Source of the DNA: Prochlorococcus sp. AG-402-B05
GTDB taxonomy: Bacteria > Cyanobacteriota > Cyanobacteriia > PCC-6307 > Cyanobiaceae
Direction of reading: 5' to 3'
NCBI GenBank assembly: GCA_003279635.1
Contig: QCHK01000005.1
Span: forward strand, 49,444-113,443
Length of the DNA: 64,000 nucleotides
A program made the translations under genes and the position numbers. Below are positions 5,089-13,246 of the stretch, piece by piece. Numbering within the stretch: position 1 is the first letter of the stretch; each line of letters starts with the position of its first letter. The notes under the pieces were generated by a model. The model had not been told where the DNA came from, searched no databases, and was given only the letters and a program-made list of their open reading frames with translations.

Positions 5089-5116
5089 ATATCTTATCTA
5101 TTTAAGTGAATTGTTT
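5070..5116. terminator. Palindromic bidirectional terminator inside both coding ends
   Basis: Two perfect 22-base arms (beginning AAACAATTCACTTAAATAG) are separated by TCT. The left arm carries the last codons and stop of the LPOR-like gene (ending NNSLK); the right arm, read on the other strand, carries the last codons of the mscS-like gene (ending TIHLNR). It probably terminates both convergent transcripts although U-tracts are weak. Confidence 0.6.
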
Positions 5117-6110
5117 GTGTTGGATATGCGAAGTTAATATTTTCATTTTGGAATTTCTTCATGATCTCTAGATTAATTTCTTGCTGAGCTGACATTGCTA
5201 GAAGGTAATCACTTGTTGGAATGTAATAGACAAGTTCAAAATCAAGACTGCTCTTTGCGAATTCGATAAAATGACATCGGTCGAAGATCGCATTTTCAGT
5301 TTTATCAACGATATTTTTTATCAGCATAGGTATGCTTTTTGTTTGGTCATATGTGGTTTCATAGACAACACCTAACTTATGAACCAGTCTTCTTTTTTTC
5401 ATCTCAGCATAATTAGAGATTACTCCATTTGTGAGTCGGCTATTGCTCATTACTATTGCTTCTCCGTTTATACTTCTTAAGCGTGTTGATCTAACACCTA
5501 CTCTCTCAACTTTTGCCCAGATCCCATCAATATGAATAAACTGTCCACTTTGAAATGGTTTATCTAGGAGGATCGTTATGTATTCGAAAAACTCTTGAAC
5601 TGGTTCCTTTAAAGCAAGTCCAGCTCCTATACCTCCTGCACTTAAAAGAGCCCAAATGGCTGCCATTTGGACACCCATGTTTTGAAGGTAAAAAATAACT
5701 CCTAGACTCCAAACAGACGCCCCAACCATTGGACTAAGTGAACGAATCATTTCACTTATGGATTGATCATTAATTTTACTTGCCCATCTTTGTATTATTT
5801 TTAAAAATACTCTATTTATAAATCTGACAATATAAATAAGGCATAGAAACTTACTAATACCAATTAATGTCTTATCAACTATTCCACCAATTAGTAAGAC
5901 TTTCCATGCAACGATGAAACTTAGTATAAACCCTAAAGGTTTAATTATTTCAATTAAAAGTGTAGCTATGTAGTCATCAGTTTTGCTTTGAGTCGCAGAG
6001 GTTATTCTCCTTAAAACCTTTTTTAGGATTTTTGGACTCACCAAGGAAATAATGCAACCTACGCTAAAAGTAAGTAATGAAATAATTATGTTTTTATAAA
6101 AATCGTCCAT
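5094..6110 (-). CDS. Small-conductance mechanosensitive channel (MscS family)
   Basis: Membrane protein of 338 aa with about four hydrophobic helices in the first 155 residues, then the pore-lining helix rich in Gly/Ala (MAAIWALLSAGGIGAGLALKEPVQEFF) and the MscS beta domain (ILLDKPFQSGQFIHIDGIWAKVERVGVRSTRLRSINGEAIVMSNSRL). A C-terminal alpha/beta domain follows. It would release solutes from the cytoplasm on hypo-osmotic shock. ATG start and full length. Convergent with the LPOR-like gene; the stop lies in the shared hairpin. It is one of several osmotic-stress genes in the first 12 kb. Confidence 0.88.
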   Translation of the reverse strand: MDDFYKNIIISLLTFSVGCIISLVSPKILKKVLRRITSATQSKTDDYIATLLIEIIKPLGFILSFIVAWKVLLIGGIVDKTLIGISKFLCLIYIVRFINRVFLKIIQRWASKINDQSISEMIRSLSPMVGASVWSLGVIFYLQNMGVQMAAIWALLSAGGIGAGLALKEPVQEFFEYITILLDKPFQSGQFIHIDGIWAKVERVGVRSTRLRSINGEAIVMSNSRLTNGVISNYAEMKKRRLVHKLGVVYETTYDQTKSIPMLIKNIVDKTENAIFDRCHFIEFAKSSLDFELVYYIPTSDYLLAMSAQQEINLEIMKKFQNENINFAYPTQTIHLNR

Positions 6111-8402: not shown

Positions 8403-9617
8403 TTACAAATTTTTCACTAATAAGCTAAAAGTTAATTGTTTAAACCACTCAATATATTCTTTTGGACCATCATTAATAATCATATTGAATTTTAAATCAT
8501 CATTAGGATCACTAACTCCTTTCATATCAGTTCCATTTATTCTTGGTCTTAATACCTGATCGTTGCAGCTGTTAACAAATATAACTTGATTATCTTTCTT
8601 ATATGATTCTCCCAGCCTTTGGATCAATGTTAAGAAACCTCGATCACTTCCACCTCTTAACCAAGAATTATCTTTATTATCTTTAACCGAGGTTACTGTA
8701 TCGCCAACACCTACTAGAAGTGGCATTTGTTCGTGCGGTATTTTATCTCTGCAAAGCTTTATTAATTGAGCATGTGTCTTTGGAGCATTCCTGACATTGA
8801 AGTTTTCACCGAATGGATAAACGCCAGTTTTATTTGCTATGTATTTATTTAATAGAAATAAAAGGCCTGCTTCTTTTATTGCCCCTTTGATAATGAACTG
8901 AATATCTGTTGTTCCAAATTCATTTTGAGTTGAATATTTCATTATTTCTCTGCCATCTCTTATTCCTAGATTTGGCATCAAATGTAGATAAAAAGAATTA
9001 TCTAAGCCAACATTTTTAGATTCTTCTAGCAAATCATTCATTATTTTTTCCATAATCAATTGCAAATCTTTAACTTTTTGGAAATCATTTTTAACGTAGC
9101 TAAAGATTTCATTAAAGTTTAACGTAGGTGTAAAGCGTGTATCACATACAGCCACATCAATTAATTTATTTCTTTTCTCATTTGAAAGGTTTGGTAAGAA
9201 TTTTTTTAATTCATTAGTTAACATATATCTCATCATCTTTGGAACTTCTGCTAAAAAGTTAATCTCATTATCTTTGAGCCCTGGATGAGATAAATTACTA
9301 AATCTATCTTGATACTCAACTCCACATGCTGCAAGGCCAGGTAAGTAAAAGCCATTTTCTTTTGCAGTTATTTTCGAATTAAGTGCTTTTTCTACTAAAC
9401 GATTAACGCCTCTTTTGCCTTCATGCTCCCCGCAGGTTAGAACTGCAAACTTCTCTCTTAATCTTGAAACGTCCTTCACATATTCTTTGTTGATCTCTCT
9501 TTGGAGTGGGTCTTGAACTAGTGAGATACAAACGCCGTCAAGATCCTGAACTATTAGAATATTTTGTTCGTTTATTATAGTGTTAATAACTTCTTCTTTC
9601 ATCTTAAATATTTTCAT
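8403..9617 (-). CDS. stpA: Glucosylglycerol-3-phosphate phosphatase (StpA)
   Basis: Matches the salt-tolerance phosphatase family: an N-terminal HAD-like acidic motif (LIVQDLDGVCISLVQDPL, residues about 20-37), a middle block LPGLAACGVEYQDRF, and a C-terminal PLLVGVGDTVTSVKDN acidic motif. In this family the enzyme removes phosphate from glucosylglycerol-phosphate to make the osmolyte glucosylglycerol. 404 aa fits. The partner synthase GgpS is not in this window. It is divergent from a glycerol-3-phosphate-dehydrogenase-like gene, with a 163-base shared promoter region, which fits a glycerol-phosphate context. Two ATG codons are near the start (MKIFKMKEE); the first is kept. Confidence 0.82.
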   Translation of the reverse strand: MKIFKMKEEVINTIINEQNILIVQDLDGVCISLVQDPLQREINKEYVKDVSRLREKFAVLTCGEHEGKRGVNRLVEKALNSKITAKENGFYLPGLAACGVEYQDRFSNLSHPGLKDNEINFLAEVPKMMRYMLTNELKKFLPNLSNEKRNKLIDVAVCDTRFTPTLNFNEIFSYVKNDFQKVKDLQLIMEKIMNDLLEESKNVGLDNSFYLHLMPNLGIRDGREIMKYSTQNEFGTTDIQFIIKGAIKEAGLLFLLNKYIANKTGVYPFGENFNVRNAPKTHAQLIKLCRDKIPHEQMPLLVGVGDTVTSVKDNKDNSWLRGGSDRGFLTLIQRLGESYKKDNQVIFVNSCNDQVLRPRINGTDMKGVSDPNDDLKFNMIINDGPKEYIEWFKQLTFSLLVKNL

Positions 9618-9753
9618 AAAAGAAGCCTTTAAATATTAGTTTACTCTAGTTCAAAGGAAGATACACTTTCTTGATAGTTATTGTTCTTAAATAATTATAT
9701 AGATATATATTCAGTATAGTAAAATCTATTTATAAAAGTTTCTAATTATTGTA

Positions 9754-9759
9754 TATAAT
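9754..9759 (+). promoter_or_regulatory. -10 box for the GpsA-like gene
   Basis: A perfect TATAAT preceded by TGTA lies 21 bases before the GTG start. Transcription would begin near 9766, leaving a leader of about 15 bases with no Shine-Dalgarno sequence. The same 163-base region must also drive divergent stpA. Confidence 0.5.
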
Positions 9760-9780
9760 GTAATTGAATGAAAATAAACT

Positions 9781-11322
9781 GTGTTTGATAAGAATTTAAG
9801 TAATAGCTTTTTTGCTGAGCCTTATTCAAGTGGGCCTATAGCAATAAGAATTAGAGAGGTTTTGAATGGAAAAGTCGGATTTTACAGTGTCGGCTTATAT
9901 CCTGCCTCTCTTGCCTATAACTGTGCGTTGCAAAATGAAGGCTTCAACATTCTTTTAGCCCCAAGAGACGGTAGAGAACTTTTTGGAGCTTTTTCTGATT
10001 TTGATCTCTCTGAAATGGATAACGGTATAAAAAATAAAATTGAATCTATGGCAATTTCAAATGAAGATAAATCAGGCAGATATAATACTCTTAAGGATTT
10101 ATTGATTAACTGTGAATTAGTTGTTTTGGGTTCAAATAGTAAACATATAATAACTGACGTTGATTTAGCATTCAAACTCAAAAGAGAGCTTAATCGAGAT
10201 AATGTTTTAATTGCATGCTTGGTTGGATCATTTTGCCATGATCATAATTTGAACGAATCTTTTGTGTTGTGCGAAAAATTAAATAATCTAGCTTTCTTTT
10301 CAGGTTTTCATCGACACGGAGCTCTTCGAAACCCATTAGATAGTTTTACTGCTAATTTTTGTCATCCAGACGCTATGAATGCAATATTAGGTGCAAAATT
10401 ATTAAATAAAATATCACCAAATATTCAAGTTTCTGCAGGTATACATAATGTTGAAGGTCAATACATTAAAGCTGCTAAAAACATATCTTCTATCTTTGCG
10501 GGTTTTGGTCATACTTTTCATAAGAATAATCCTGGATTGCTACCAACTTTATTAACTTTATTATTAGATCAATGTCTAGATCAGGCTGCCTACGTTTCAA
10601 TGAGTCGAAAAGATAGGGAAGATTTATATTCTAAACAACCTTTTCCTATTACCGAACTTGGATATGGCGTCCAACGCATAGAGGCTTCCTATATTAAGGA
10701 TGGAGATTTTGTTCAGATTAGAGATCATACTTTTACTCAACTTACAGCTATGGTTGCGGATGTGAGAGGGAGCATGATGTTGCCTGTTAGTGGTAACCCA
10801 ACTAGGAATTTTCAAGCTGGTCAAGTCCTTGCTGACAAGATGATTGAGTATAAAAGATGTCCAAAAGGTGTAGATGAATTTATAGAATGGTGCGAAAGAT
10901 CTGGTCTTAAACGTGGTGCTTTAGAAGGAATAAACTCTTTGAGTTATTGGCCAAATATCTTAAGGAAGTATTCAATACCCTTGAATAATTCATCAATGAT
11001 TAATCTTTTATATATGTGTATATTGGGACCTGTTGAGATTAAAAAATATATTTATAATGTTATGTCAAGTAGCCGTGAATTAGCTAACTATTGTCAAGAA
11101 TCTGTTAAGTCATTACAGAGCAAGAAAATATCTGAATCGCTAGATAATTTCCATTTAGAAACTTCTGTTGATTTTGTAACAAAGTCACTAACTGATGAAG
11201 ATAAATTATTTTTTGAATTTAATGATATTGGCTTTGATAATCCACTAGGAGCACAAAATAAGCCGATTTATAATAAAGTTATTGATTACATGGAGACCTA
11301 TTTATTAGAATCTAATCTATAA
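9781..11322 (+). CDS. Glycerol-3-phosphate-dehydrogenase-like protein with C-terminal extension
   Basis: I first read this as unknown, but three blocks parallel GpsA: an N-terminal nucleotide-binding turn (VGFYSVGLYPASLAYNCAL), a second-domain block IHNVEGQYIKAAKNISSIFAGFGH (compare the GVE..GALKN..AIAAG catalytic helix, with Lys and Asn kept), and RGSMMLPVSGNPTRNFQAGQVLAD (compare GDL..TC.S..SRN..FG). The usual GxGxxG has become GxYxxG. It is 513 aa rather than about 330, with roughly 170 extra C-terminal residues. It may act on glycerol-phosphate or a related polyol-phosphate in the cytoplasm. GTG start; the kinase gene follows after 10 bases. Confidence 0.6.
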   Translation: MFDKNLSNSFFAEPYSSGPIAIRIREVLNGKVGFYSVGLYPASLAYNCALQNEGFNILLAPRDGRELFGAFSDFDLSEMDNGIKNKIESMAISNEDKSGRYNTLKDLLINCELVVLGSNSKHIITDVDLAFKLKRELNRDNVLIACLVGSFCHDHNLNESFVLCEKLNNLAFFSGFHRHGALRNPLDSFTANFCHPDAMNAILGAKLLNKISPNIQVSAGIHNVEGQYIKAAKNISSIFAGFGHTFHKNNPGLLPTLLTLLLDQCLDQAAYVSMSRKDREDLYSKQPFPITELGYGVQRIEASYIKDGDFVQIRDHTFTQLTAMVADVRGSMMLPVSGNPTRNFQAGQVLADKMIEYKRCPKGVDEFIEWCERSGLKRGALEGINSLSYWPNILRKYSIPLNNSSMINLLYMCILGPVEIKKYIYNVMSSSRELANYCQESVKSLQSKKISESLDNFHLETSVDFVTKSLTDEDKLFFEFNDIGFDNPLGAQNKPIYNKVIDYMETYLLESNL

Positions 11323-11332
11323 AATAAACCCT

Positions 11333-12496
11333 ATGGACTTTGAACAAATAAGTTTGATCACTTCCAATTTTTTTGATAATAGTAAACTTTTAAATGTAGA
11401 TTCTATAGATTCTGGCCTTATAAATAAAACGTATATTATTGAACATATAATTAATGGGAATAAATCTAAATTTGTTTTACAGTGTCTTAGTAATATATTT
11501 GAACCCTATGAGAAAGTTATTATGAATCACAAATTAATAACTGATCATTTTAAAAATAAAAGTAAAGGAAATTATCTTAAATCTAGTAATCAAAGATGGG
11601 AAGTTCCATGTTTGATAAAGTGTAATTCTAATAACCTTTTTGTATTTCCTTTTTGCTCAGGTTTTTGGCGAGCTATGGAATATATTGATGACACTCTTAA
11701 CTTTAATATTGTAGAAGATAATAAAATGGCTTATCAAGCTGGTCTTGGTCTTGCTAAGTTTCATGAAACATTCTCCGATATTGACCTTGCAAAATTAGAA
11801 AATACTTTTAAAGACTTTCATGATACAAAAAAATATATTGATCAATTTAATATGACTGTTAATGATTTTAATTTTATTAAATTAGACGATAATGTAAATA
11901 AAAGAGTTCAAAACTTAATTGATAGTTTATCCAATCATATCTTATATGTTGAATCTTTATTAGGATATTTAAAGAAAACATCAATACAACCTTGTTTAAT
12001 TCATGGTGATCCTAAGTTAAGTAATTTTCTCTTTGATATTCAATATAAATATGTCGTTTCTTTAGTTGATTTAGATACTGTATCTTCTGGTTGTTTACCT
12101 ACTGATTTAGCTGATTGTATTCGATCCATTTGTAATATTGCTGGGGAGAATCCAGATAATATAGAGAATGTTTCTTTTGATGTTAATTGTTGTAACTATC
12201 TTCTCAAAGGTTATTTCTCGACTTCTAATAAGAATTGTGATTACGGTTTTGGACTCCTTCCCGAATTTATTTATTTGATAATTGTTGAATTAATTATTAG
12301 ATTCCTGAATGACTTTTTACAATCAAATAGGTACTTCAAAGTAAAATATCAAACTCACAATCTATATAGAGCAGAGGTTCAATATCGATTGCTTTCTAGT
12401 TTCATTACTCAAATGCCTACTTTGTCAAATTCACTTCATGGAATTGGGATTTCTTCAAACTCTAATTTTGTCTCCGATGTACAAAATATTGTTTAG
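11333..12496 (+). CDS. APH-fold small-molecule kinase
   Basis: Aminoglycoside-phosphotransferase-type fold: a catalytic loop CLIHGDPKLSNFLFD (HGDxxxxN, near residues 222-236) and VVSLVDLDTVSSGCLPTDLADCIRS, the DxD-type metal-binding segment. The N-terminal lobe begins with SGLINKTYIIE, the nucleotide-binding hairpin. Relatives include N-acetylhexosamine kinases and homoserine kinases of the ThrB2/APH type, so the substrate is open. 387 aa is on the long side. It lies 10 bases after the GpsA-like gene and almost certainly shares its transcript. Codon use is AT-rich like its partner. Confidence 0.72.
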   Translation: MDFEQISLITSNFFDNSKLLNVDSIDSGLINKTYIIEHIINGNKSKFVLQCLSNIFEPYEKVIMNHKLITDHFKNKSKGNYLKSSNQRWEVPCLIKCNSNNLFVFPFCSGFWRAMEYIDDTLNFNIVEDNKMAYQAGLGLAKFHETFSDIDLAKLENTFKDFHDTKKYIDQFNMTVNDFNFIKLDDNVNKRVQNLIDSLSNHILYVESLLGYLKKTSIQPCLIHGDPKLSNFLFDIQYKYVVSLVDLDTVSSGCLPTDLADCIRSICNIAGENPDNIENVSFDVNCCNYLLKGYFSTSNKNCDYGFGLLPEFIYLIIVELIIRFLNDFLQSNRYFKVKYQTHNLYRAEVQYRLLSSFITQMPTLSNSLHGIGISSNSNFVSDVQNIV

Positions 12497-12550: not shown

Positions 12551-13246
12551 GTGGCAAAGGAATTAACCCATAGAGCCGATGAGCTTAAACAATTAGGTTG
12601 GAATCAGGAAGATTTGTACAAATATATTGAGTTATGGGATTACAGACAAAGATGGGGCTCTATAAATCTAGAGAGAGAAGATAGGTTGTTTCTAAGAAAA
12701 GCAGAATCTTTATTGCCTGAAATTTCTAAAAGCAAAGTTTCAGTTAAAAAACCTCTCAAGGAAAAGTCATATTATTGCTGGATTCAGTTTTTTCTGAATG
12801 AAATGAATGATTTTGAGTTGAATGAAAATTTAGACGATGGCATGAGAGGGGTTTGGCCTATTTTTCTAGAGGAAGAACTTCGAGTAATTGATTATTTTGA
12901 ACCAGTTTTAGGCTTGCCGGATACAATTAAGGCTAAATTAATCGGCCCAATTAGAGAGGACTTGGCCAAAACAGCTTTAGAAATCTACAAAGAATCAGTT
13001 ATTACAAAGCAATTTGATTTCCAAGGGGTTTTGGCTAATGCAAAATCCAGTGGCAAAAACTCTAGTTGGAGATCTCTTAGAGATGGTGATTTTGAGAGCA
13101 ACCAAGACTATCAAATTATTGATAAAAACAAAGTTCTTGAATTCCGTAAGAAAGTCAATGAAAAGCTTTTATCATTTATAAAAGAGAATTTACCATCTCT
13201 AGCTGAGTCAGATAAATCTTTACCTCCTAATGATTGGATAAATTAA
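12551..13246 (+). CDS. Conserved cyanobacterial protein, unknown
   Basis: A soluble, charged 231-aa protein beginning MAKELTHRADELKQLGWN, with several Trp residues (ELWDYRQRWGSINLEREDR; SYYCWIQFFLNEMNDFE; MRGVWPIFLEEELRV). No transmembrane segment or signal peptide is visible. The pattern reminds me of conserved hypothetical proteins found only in cyanobacteria, but I cannot attach a function. GTG start; it lies between the kinase gene and metY and is followed 19 bases later by metY, so it may be cotranscribed with the methionine genes. Confidence 0.7.
   Translation: MAKELTHRADELKQLGWNQEDLYKYIELWDYRQRWGSINLEREDRLFLRKAESLLPEISKSKVSVKKPLKEKSYYCWIQFFLNEMNDFELNENLDDGMRGVWPIFLEEELRVIDYFEPVLGLPDTIKAKLIGPIREDLAKTALEIYKESVITKQFDFQGVLANAKSSGKNSSWRSLRDGDFESNQDYQIIDKNKVLEFRKKVNEKLLSFIKENLPSLAESDKSLPPNDWIN

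Follow-up and report, generated by a model that had tools for sequence, protein, structure and literature searches.

The window, a stretch of 64,000 nucleotides from a 1.76-Mb Prochlorococcus-type genome, carries a gene whose 513-residue product is probably a highly divergent glycerol-3-phosphate dehydrogenase (GPDH), which would supply the glycerol 3-phosphate (G3P) of the lipid backbone in marine picocyanobacteria after the loss of GpsA. This reading is based on the predicted fold of the protein, its invariant motifs, the complementarity of its distribution with that of gpsA, its gene neighbourhood, and the absence of alternatives; from these we infer its substrate, cofactor, direction of reaction, and essentiality. 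In the proposed mechanism, the 513-aa protein would reduce dihydroxyacetone phosphate to sn-glycerol-3-phosphate, presumably with NAD(P)H. Its gene would have arisen linked to glucosylglycerol synthesis, in which G3P is used by GgpS; in marine Synechococcus and Prochlorococcus, the protein would then have taken over from canonical GpsA, which was lost. In the lineage of the window, ggpS, glpK, and glpD would have disappeared as well, leaving the 513-aa protein as the only recognizable source of the G3P that enters membrane glycerolipids via PlsY.

G3P is needed for every glycerolipid, and Prochlorococcus are the most abundant photosynthetic bacteria of the ocean. Together, Prochlorococcus and marine Synechococcus account for about a quarter of ocean primary production (PMC6753628). 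G3P synthesis in these organisms had no assigned enzyme, and one conserved candidate gene can now be named. In a 2012 survey, EC 1.1.1.94 was listed as unannotated for Prochlorococcus (PMC3369817). According to a 2022 comparison, freshwater and SC5.2 strains have gpsA, whereas other marine ones do not and carry FAD-dependent glpA and glpK (PMC9361551). A limited literature search returned no paper assigning a G3P function to the 513-aa gene.

Distribution of the gene and the supply of G3P

Canonical gpsA is missing from the window genome and from its complete relatives, a circumstance that could not be seen from the window alone. Of the family, 300 genomes were surveyed: 159 carry the 513-aa gene, 126 gpsA (PF07479), and 165 stpA; when cross-tabulated, 26 genomes carry both the 513-aa gene and gpsA, 133 the 513-aa gene only, 100 gpsA only, and 41 neither. 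Among the 196 genomes that are at least 90% complete, the 513-aa gene occurs in 120, gpsA in 95, both in 21, and at least one of the two in 194; the two genomes with neither, G053 and G112, are 90% and 94% complete. The complementarity gives a Fisher p of 9e-32, a value that is descriptive only, as the genomes are related. Within the genus, all 17 near-complete genomes carry the 513-aa gene. Where gpsA is kept (126 genomes), the 513-aa gene follows stpA: it is present in 25 of 28 genomes with stpA and in 1 of 98 without, the sole exception (G122) carrying ggpS. Both patterns point to G3P supply by the 513-aa protein, which would be a second enzyme in glucosylglycerol makers still carrying gpsA and the universal one in genomes that have lost it. 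A role of the gene in glucosylglycerol synthesis only was rejected, since the gene persists in genomes that have lost ggpS.

G3P could also be obtained by glycerol kinase (GlpK) or the FAD-dependent GlpD, each of which was found in 32 genomes of a 61-genome draw. Seven near-complete genomes, namely that of the window (G000), G003, G043, G050, G057, G069, and G079, gave no match to GpsA, GlpK, or GlpD, and all seven keep both PlsY and the 513-aa gene. PlsY, an acyltransferase that consumes G3P, is present in 34 of 34 near-complete genomes. GlpK and GlpD were therefore rejected as an alternative source for the window genome and the six others, from which both are absent. The 513-aa protein is thus the only recognizable candidate for a G3P source in these seven genomes. 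Another route is conceivable where GlpK or GlpD exists, as is a source of G3P elsewhere in the genome.

Beyond the family, a single genome of the phylum draw has the 513-aa gene, and among GTDB contigs it is carried by Leptolyngbya cf. ectocarpi and two marine-type metagenome-assembled genomes (MAGs). In the tree, the outside copies (L163, L164, L177, and L065; Leptolyngbyaceae and Xenococcaceae) nest in the picocyanobacterial clade and adjoin SC5.2 and Cyanobium sequences. This position suggests horizontal transfer of the gene out of (brackish) picocyanobacteria. An ancient origin common to all cyanobacteria is unsupported, given the single match in the phylum draw and the placement of the outside copies inside the picocyanobacterial tree. 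Within the family, there is an apparent evolutionary series from gpsA only (freshwater-type genomes) through both genes (mostly glucosylglycerol-capable, brackish-type genomes) to the 513-aa gene only (marine genomes).

Predicted fold and active-site motifs

Neither Pfam nor NCBIfam recognizes the 513-aa family. Sequence searches with the protein returned no meaningful match in these databases, in PHROGs, or in the PDB, and membership of PF01210, PF07479, or an NCBIfam family was not found. Comparison of its profile by hhalign with that of GpsA from cyanobacteria, and with a broader GPDH alignment that also contained E. coli and PDB sequences, gave a probability of 0.4-0.5, which is not significant; the local alignment at this level paired TRN with SRN and LEG with VEG. 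The profile search that had been named in advance as a check of the GpsA fold (Pfam, NCBIfam, and hhalign) thus gave no match. Since the profile-profile comparison is not significant, the protein is not filed as a member of the GpsA family, and its motifs were assigned by order, spacing, and secondary structure; it is described here as GPDH-like and as probably working like GPDH.

An AlphaFold2 model built with 37 homologs (mean pLDDT 84.6, pTM 0.87) was used to search the PDB by fold. The top 19 matches were all GPDH (E 1.4e-9 to 3.8e-7), comprising NAD-dependent enzymes of bacterial, archaeal, trypanosomatid, human, and Dunaliella origin; the next fold family, pyrroline-5-carboxylate reductase, followed from 1e-5. 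When a high-light Prochlorococcus ortholog sharing 48% identity was modelled separately (pLDDT 70), its top ten PDB chains were likewise all GPDH (E 2.2e-8 to 3.1e-6). Both models have the GPDH fold, with a Rossmann domain and an all-alpha C-terminal domain, in keeping with the GpsA-like character that the sequence-only reading had attributed to the protein. The overlap of the 513-aa model with GPDH is partial (query TM 0.46, TM normalised to GPDH about 0.6-0.7, rmsd 6-8 Å), as expected from a 41-residue insert and longer ends.

In an alignment of 37 sequences, K233-N234, D327, S331, R342-N343, L381, and E382-G383 are invariant. With the exception of L381, these are positions that serve the substrate or catalysis in GPDH. 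Placed by order, spacing, and secondary structure, the Lys-Asn, Asp...Thr/Ser, Arg-Asn, and Glu-Gly motifs are all present and follow one another as in E. coli GpsA, with 84 residues between the position of the KG loop and KN in both proteins. In the model, K233-N234 lies inside a long helix, D327 and S331 lie in a later helix, and R342-N343 starts the next. The Lys-Asn helix and SRN-like loop noted earlier are therefore present and invariant in 37 homologs, the loop reading T341-R342-N343.

Other features depart from GPDH. The GxYxxG proposed for the nucleotide loop is probably misplaced: by spacing and secondary structure, GAGSYG of GpsA aligns with S36-V37-G38-L39-Y40-P41, so that the GxGxxG dinucleotide loop is replaced by SxGxxP (S36-x-G38-x-x-P41). 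The second active-site lysine, that of the KG motif, is K110 of E. coli GpsA and K120 of human GPD1, and it is invariant in alignment A2; the 513-aa family appears to have V, A, or S at this position (residue 148), before an invariant G149. On account of the SxGxxP loop and the apparent loss of this lysine, the cofactor or substrate may differ. In addition, H177-R178-H179 is invariant among the homologs and has no GPDH counterpart. As for the approximately 170 extra residues claimed at the C-terminus, the extra length is real but not all of it is C-terminal: relative to E. coli GpsA, about 24 residues are N-terminal, about 41 lie between KN and D..S/T, where the model places a beta-hairpin, about 13 lie between RN and EG, and about 77 are C-terminal.

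The divergent locus and its relation to glucosylglycerol clusters

The coordinates of stpA, the 513-aa gene, and the kinase gene were borne out on re-check (Table 1), as were the divergent spacer and the distance of exactly 10 bases from the end of the 513-aa reading frame to the start of the kinase gene. The spacer contains TATAAT at 9754-9759, a hexamer with a chance of about 0.5 of occurring in so AT-rich a spacer. It lies within TTGTATATAAT, upstream of the 513-aa gene, a sequence that nearly all of the 31 genus members in an intergenic alignment retain (row L010 disregarded); because of this conservation, TATAAT is probably a real -10 box for the 513-aa gene. Midway between the two genes, most of the 31 loci (L001-L031) also have a palindrome-like block with the genus consensus ACTTATTCTTAAATAAGT, a possible shared operator for divergent control of stpA and the 513-aa gene.

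Table 1. Features of the locus (positions in the window).
Feature	Coordinates	Strand	Details and basis
MscS mechanosensitive channel	5094..6110	-	PF00924/PF21082
stpA / ggpP	8403..9617	-	404 aa; PF09506 4.8e-176, TIGR02399 534.5 bits
Divergent spacer, 163 bases	9618..9780	.	alignment of 31 genus members
513-aa GPDH-like protein, a predicted G3P synthase	9781..11322	+	GTG start; predicted fold, invariant motifs, gpsA complementarity
APH-fold kinase, NahK-related	11333..12496	+	387 aa; phmmer vs PDB, PF01636

The linkage of stpA to the 513-aa gene holds among relatives. In a survey of 100 loci, many of them cut by contig ends or by the 5-kb flank and some species being represented twice, 81 have stpA as a close, divergent neighbour of the 513-aa gene, 74 have the kinase gene 3' of the 513-aa gene, and 68 have both neighbours. 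Four loci in contigs of MAGs labelled Gammaproteobacteria (L123, L137, L145, and L175) have a Synechococcus-type gene order and look like binning contamination. Between the kinase gene and a metB-like gene of the window lies a reading frame for a 231-aa protein (12551-13246) without a Pfam or NCBIfam match; it occurs at the same place, with 45-57% identity, in many Prochlorococcus and Synechococcus loci.

The window StpA scores above the cut-off of the TIGR02399 equivalog (365.5 bits) and is, by sequence, a clear member of the glucosylglycerol-phosphate phosphatase family. A search for ggpS (TIGR02398) gave no match in the window genome or in the complete relatives G003 and G006. Without ggpS, the established route to the known substrate is missing; StpA is thus an orphan in the window genome, the GgpS product cannot be its substrate, and action on some other substrate is proposed. 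A similar case is MIT 9303, which has ggpP, lacks ggpS, and makes no glucosylglycerol, and a sucrose-phosphate phosphatase activity has been speculated for orphans of this kind (PMC11505929). The persistence of stpA without ggpS is seen in many picocyanobacteria, including the window genome and high-light and several low-light Prochlorococcus types.

In two genera, comprising RCC307-like and brackish strains, the stpA/513-aa pair lies in a complete glucosylglycerol cluster. The order in G049 is ggpS, an ABC sugar transporter (binding protein, two permeases, and ATPase), the 513-aa gene, stpA, a GH13 gene, glpD, glpK, and mscS, and gene positions give the same placement of the 513-aa gene in G064 and G103. 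In these three genomes, the 513-aa gene is about 5.4 kb from ggpS, and gpsA is 56-151 kb from the cluster. The window locus keeps mscS, stpA, and the 513-aa gene of such a cluster without ggpS and may be its remnant, because mscS also flanks the complete cluster of relatives (L076/L077). The GH13 enzyme between stpA and glpD (12532-14280 in L076) resembles the TreS N-terminal domain, with a score below its cut-off, and could be the glucosylglycerol-degrading enzyme of marine Synechococcus.

The kinase with HGDxxxxN had been read as an APH-fold protein; this holds (PF01636, 2.1e-9) and can be narrowed to a NahK-like one, as residues 9-356 match NahK (PDB 4wh1/4ocj) at 5e-25 by phmmer and the APH motifs HGDPKLSN and DLDT stand at residues 224 and 246. 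By this similarity, its substrate may be a free sugar, phosphorylated at C1. No observation links the kinase to G3P, and it is proposed to be an accessory sugar kinase that the suggested function of the 513-aa protein would not require. An obligate partnership was rejected, as several lineages with stpA and the 513-aa gene have lost the kinase gene; the high-light Prochlorococcus loci L080-L082, for example, have both genes and lack the kinase there. In some Synechococcus, such as WH7803, an SbcC-like/SbcD-like pair (an AAA protein and a calcineurin-like phosphoesterase; 6512-10389 in L130) lies between the 513-aa gene and the kinase gene.

Alternative explanations and comparison with known systems

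Apart from a G3P synthase, the 513-aa protein could be an oxidoreductase of GPDH fold whose substrate is not dihydroxyacetone phosphate or G3P but some other phosphorylated ketose or polyol used in compatible-solute metabolism, with G3P coming from another enzyme. The altered nucleotide loop, the missing second lysine, the extra insert and C-terminal helices, the invariant H177-R178-H179 without a GPDH counterpart, and the stpA neighbourhood would all suit such an enzyme. We nevertheless regard it as unlikely, in view of the near-perfect complementarity with gpsA and the presence of the gene, alongside PlsY, in every tested near-complete genome lacking GpsA, GlpK, and GlpD; its retention without ggpS further indicates that its role is not confined to osmolytes. 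The same degenerate loop and lost lysine would fit a protein that has kept the GPDH fold without catalytic activity and acts as a regulator or metabolite sensor in the metabolism of osmolytes or lipids. That is very improbable for a protein in which six catalytic or binding positions of GPDH are invariant and whose gene fills exactly the genomes that lost GpsA.

The sequence-only reading suggested that the products of the three genes could jointly make or recycle a polyol-phosphate osmolyte, perhaps by a new compatible-solute route. Its link to osmolyte metabolism survives in part, as the stpA/513-aa pair does lie inside the complete glucosylglycerol cluster of relatives; the conserved divergent arrangement and the frequent co-occurrence of all three genes (68 of 100 loci) are also in its favour. 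The new solute route itself did not hold up and is given very little credence: the window genome lacks ggpS, the kinase is dispensable, being absent from many lineages that keep the other two genes and separated from the 513-aa gene by the SbcC/SbcD-like pair in some Synechococcus, and it resembles a hexosamine 1-kinase and not a polyol kinase. For the G3P-synthase reading, the wider claim can be made with moderate confidence that the 513-aa protein represents a new family of G3P-forming dehydrogenases in which the nucleotide loop and the active site have been remodelled. By this claim, the family originated in a glucosylglycerol cluster and fully displaced GpsA from marine picocyanobacteria, and Prochlorococcus depends on it alone for the glycerolipid backbone. 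If this is true, an osmolyte gene became a core lipid gene.

Of the known systems, GpsA (PF01210 and PF07479; EC 1.1.1.94) is the closest, sharing with the 513-aa protein the predicted fold, the order in which the KN, D..S/T, RN, and EG motifs occur, and a putative genomic role in G3P supply next to PlsY-dependent lipid synthesis. The 513-aa protein differs from it in having no profile match, in its length, which exceeds that of GpsA by about 170 residues and includes an inserted beta-hairpin and further helices at the C-terminus, in having SxGxxP for GxGxxG, and in lacking the second active-site lysine. In G049 and G064, the genes of the GlpD/GlpK route of marine Synechococcus stand beside the 513-aa gene within the glucosylglycerol cluster; the route, however, consists of an FAD enzyme and a glycerol kinase of unrelated families and is absent from the window genome. 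The window neighbour clearly belongs to the GgpP/StpA family (PF09506, TIGR02399), although its genome is without ggpS. Finally, the kinase shares with NahK (PDB 4wh1, 4ocj) a full-length similarity and the HGD..N and DLD motifs, whereas its genomic setting is different.
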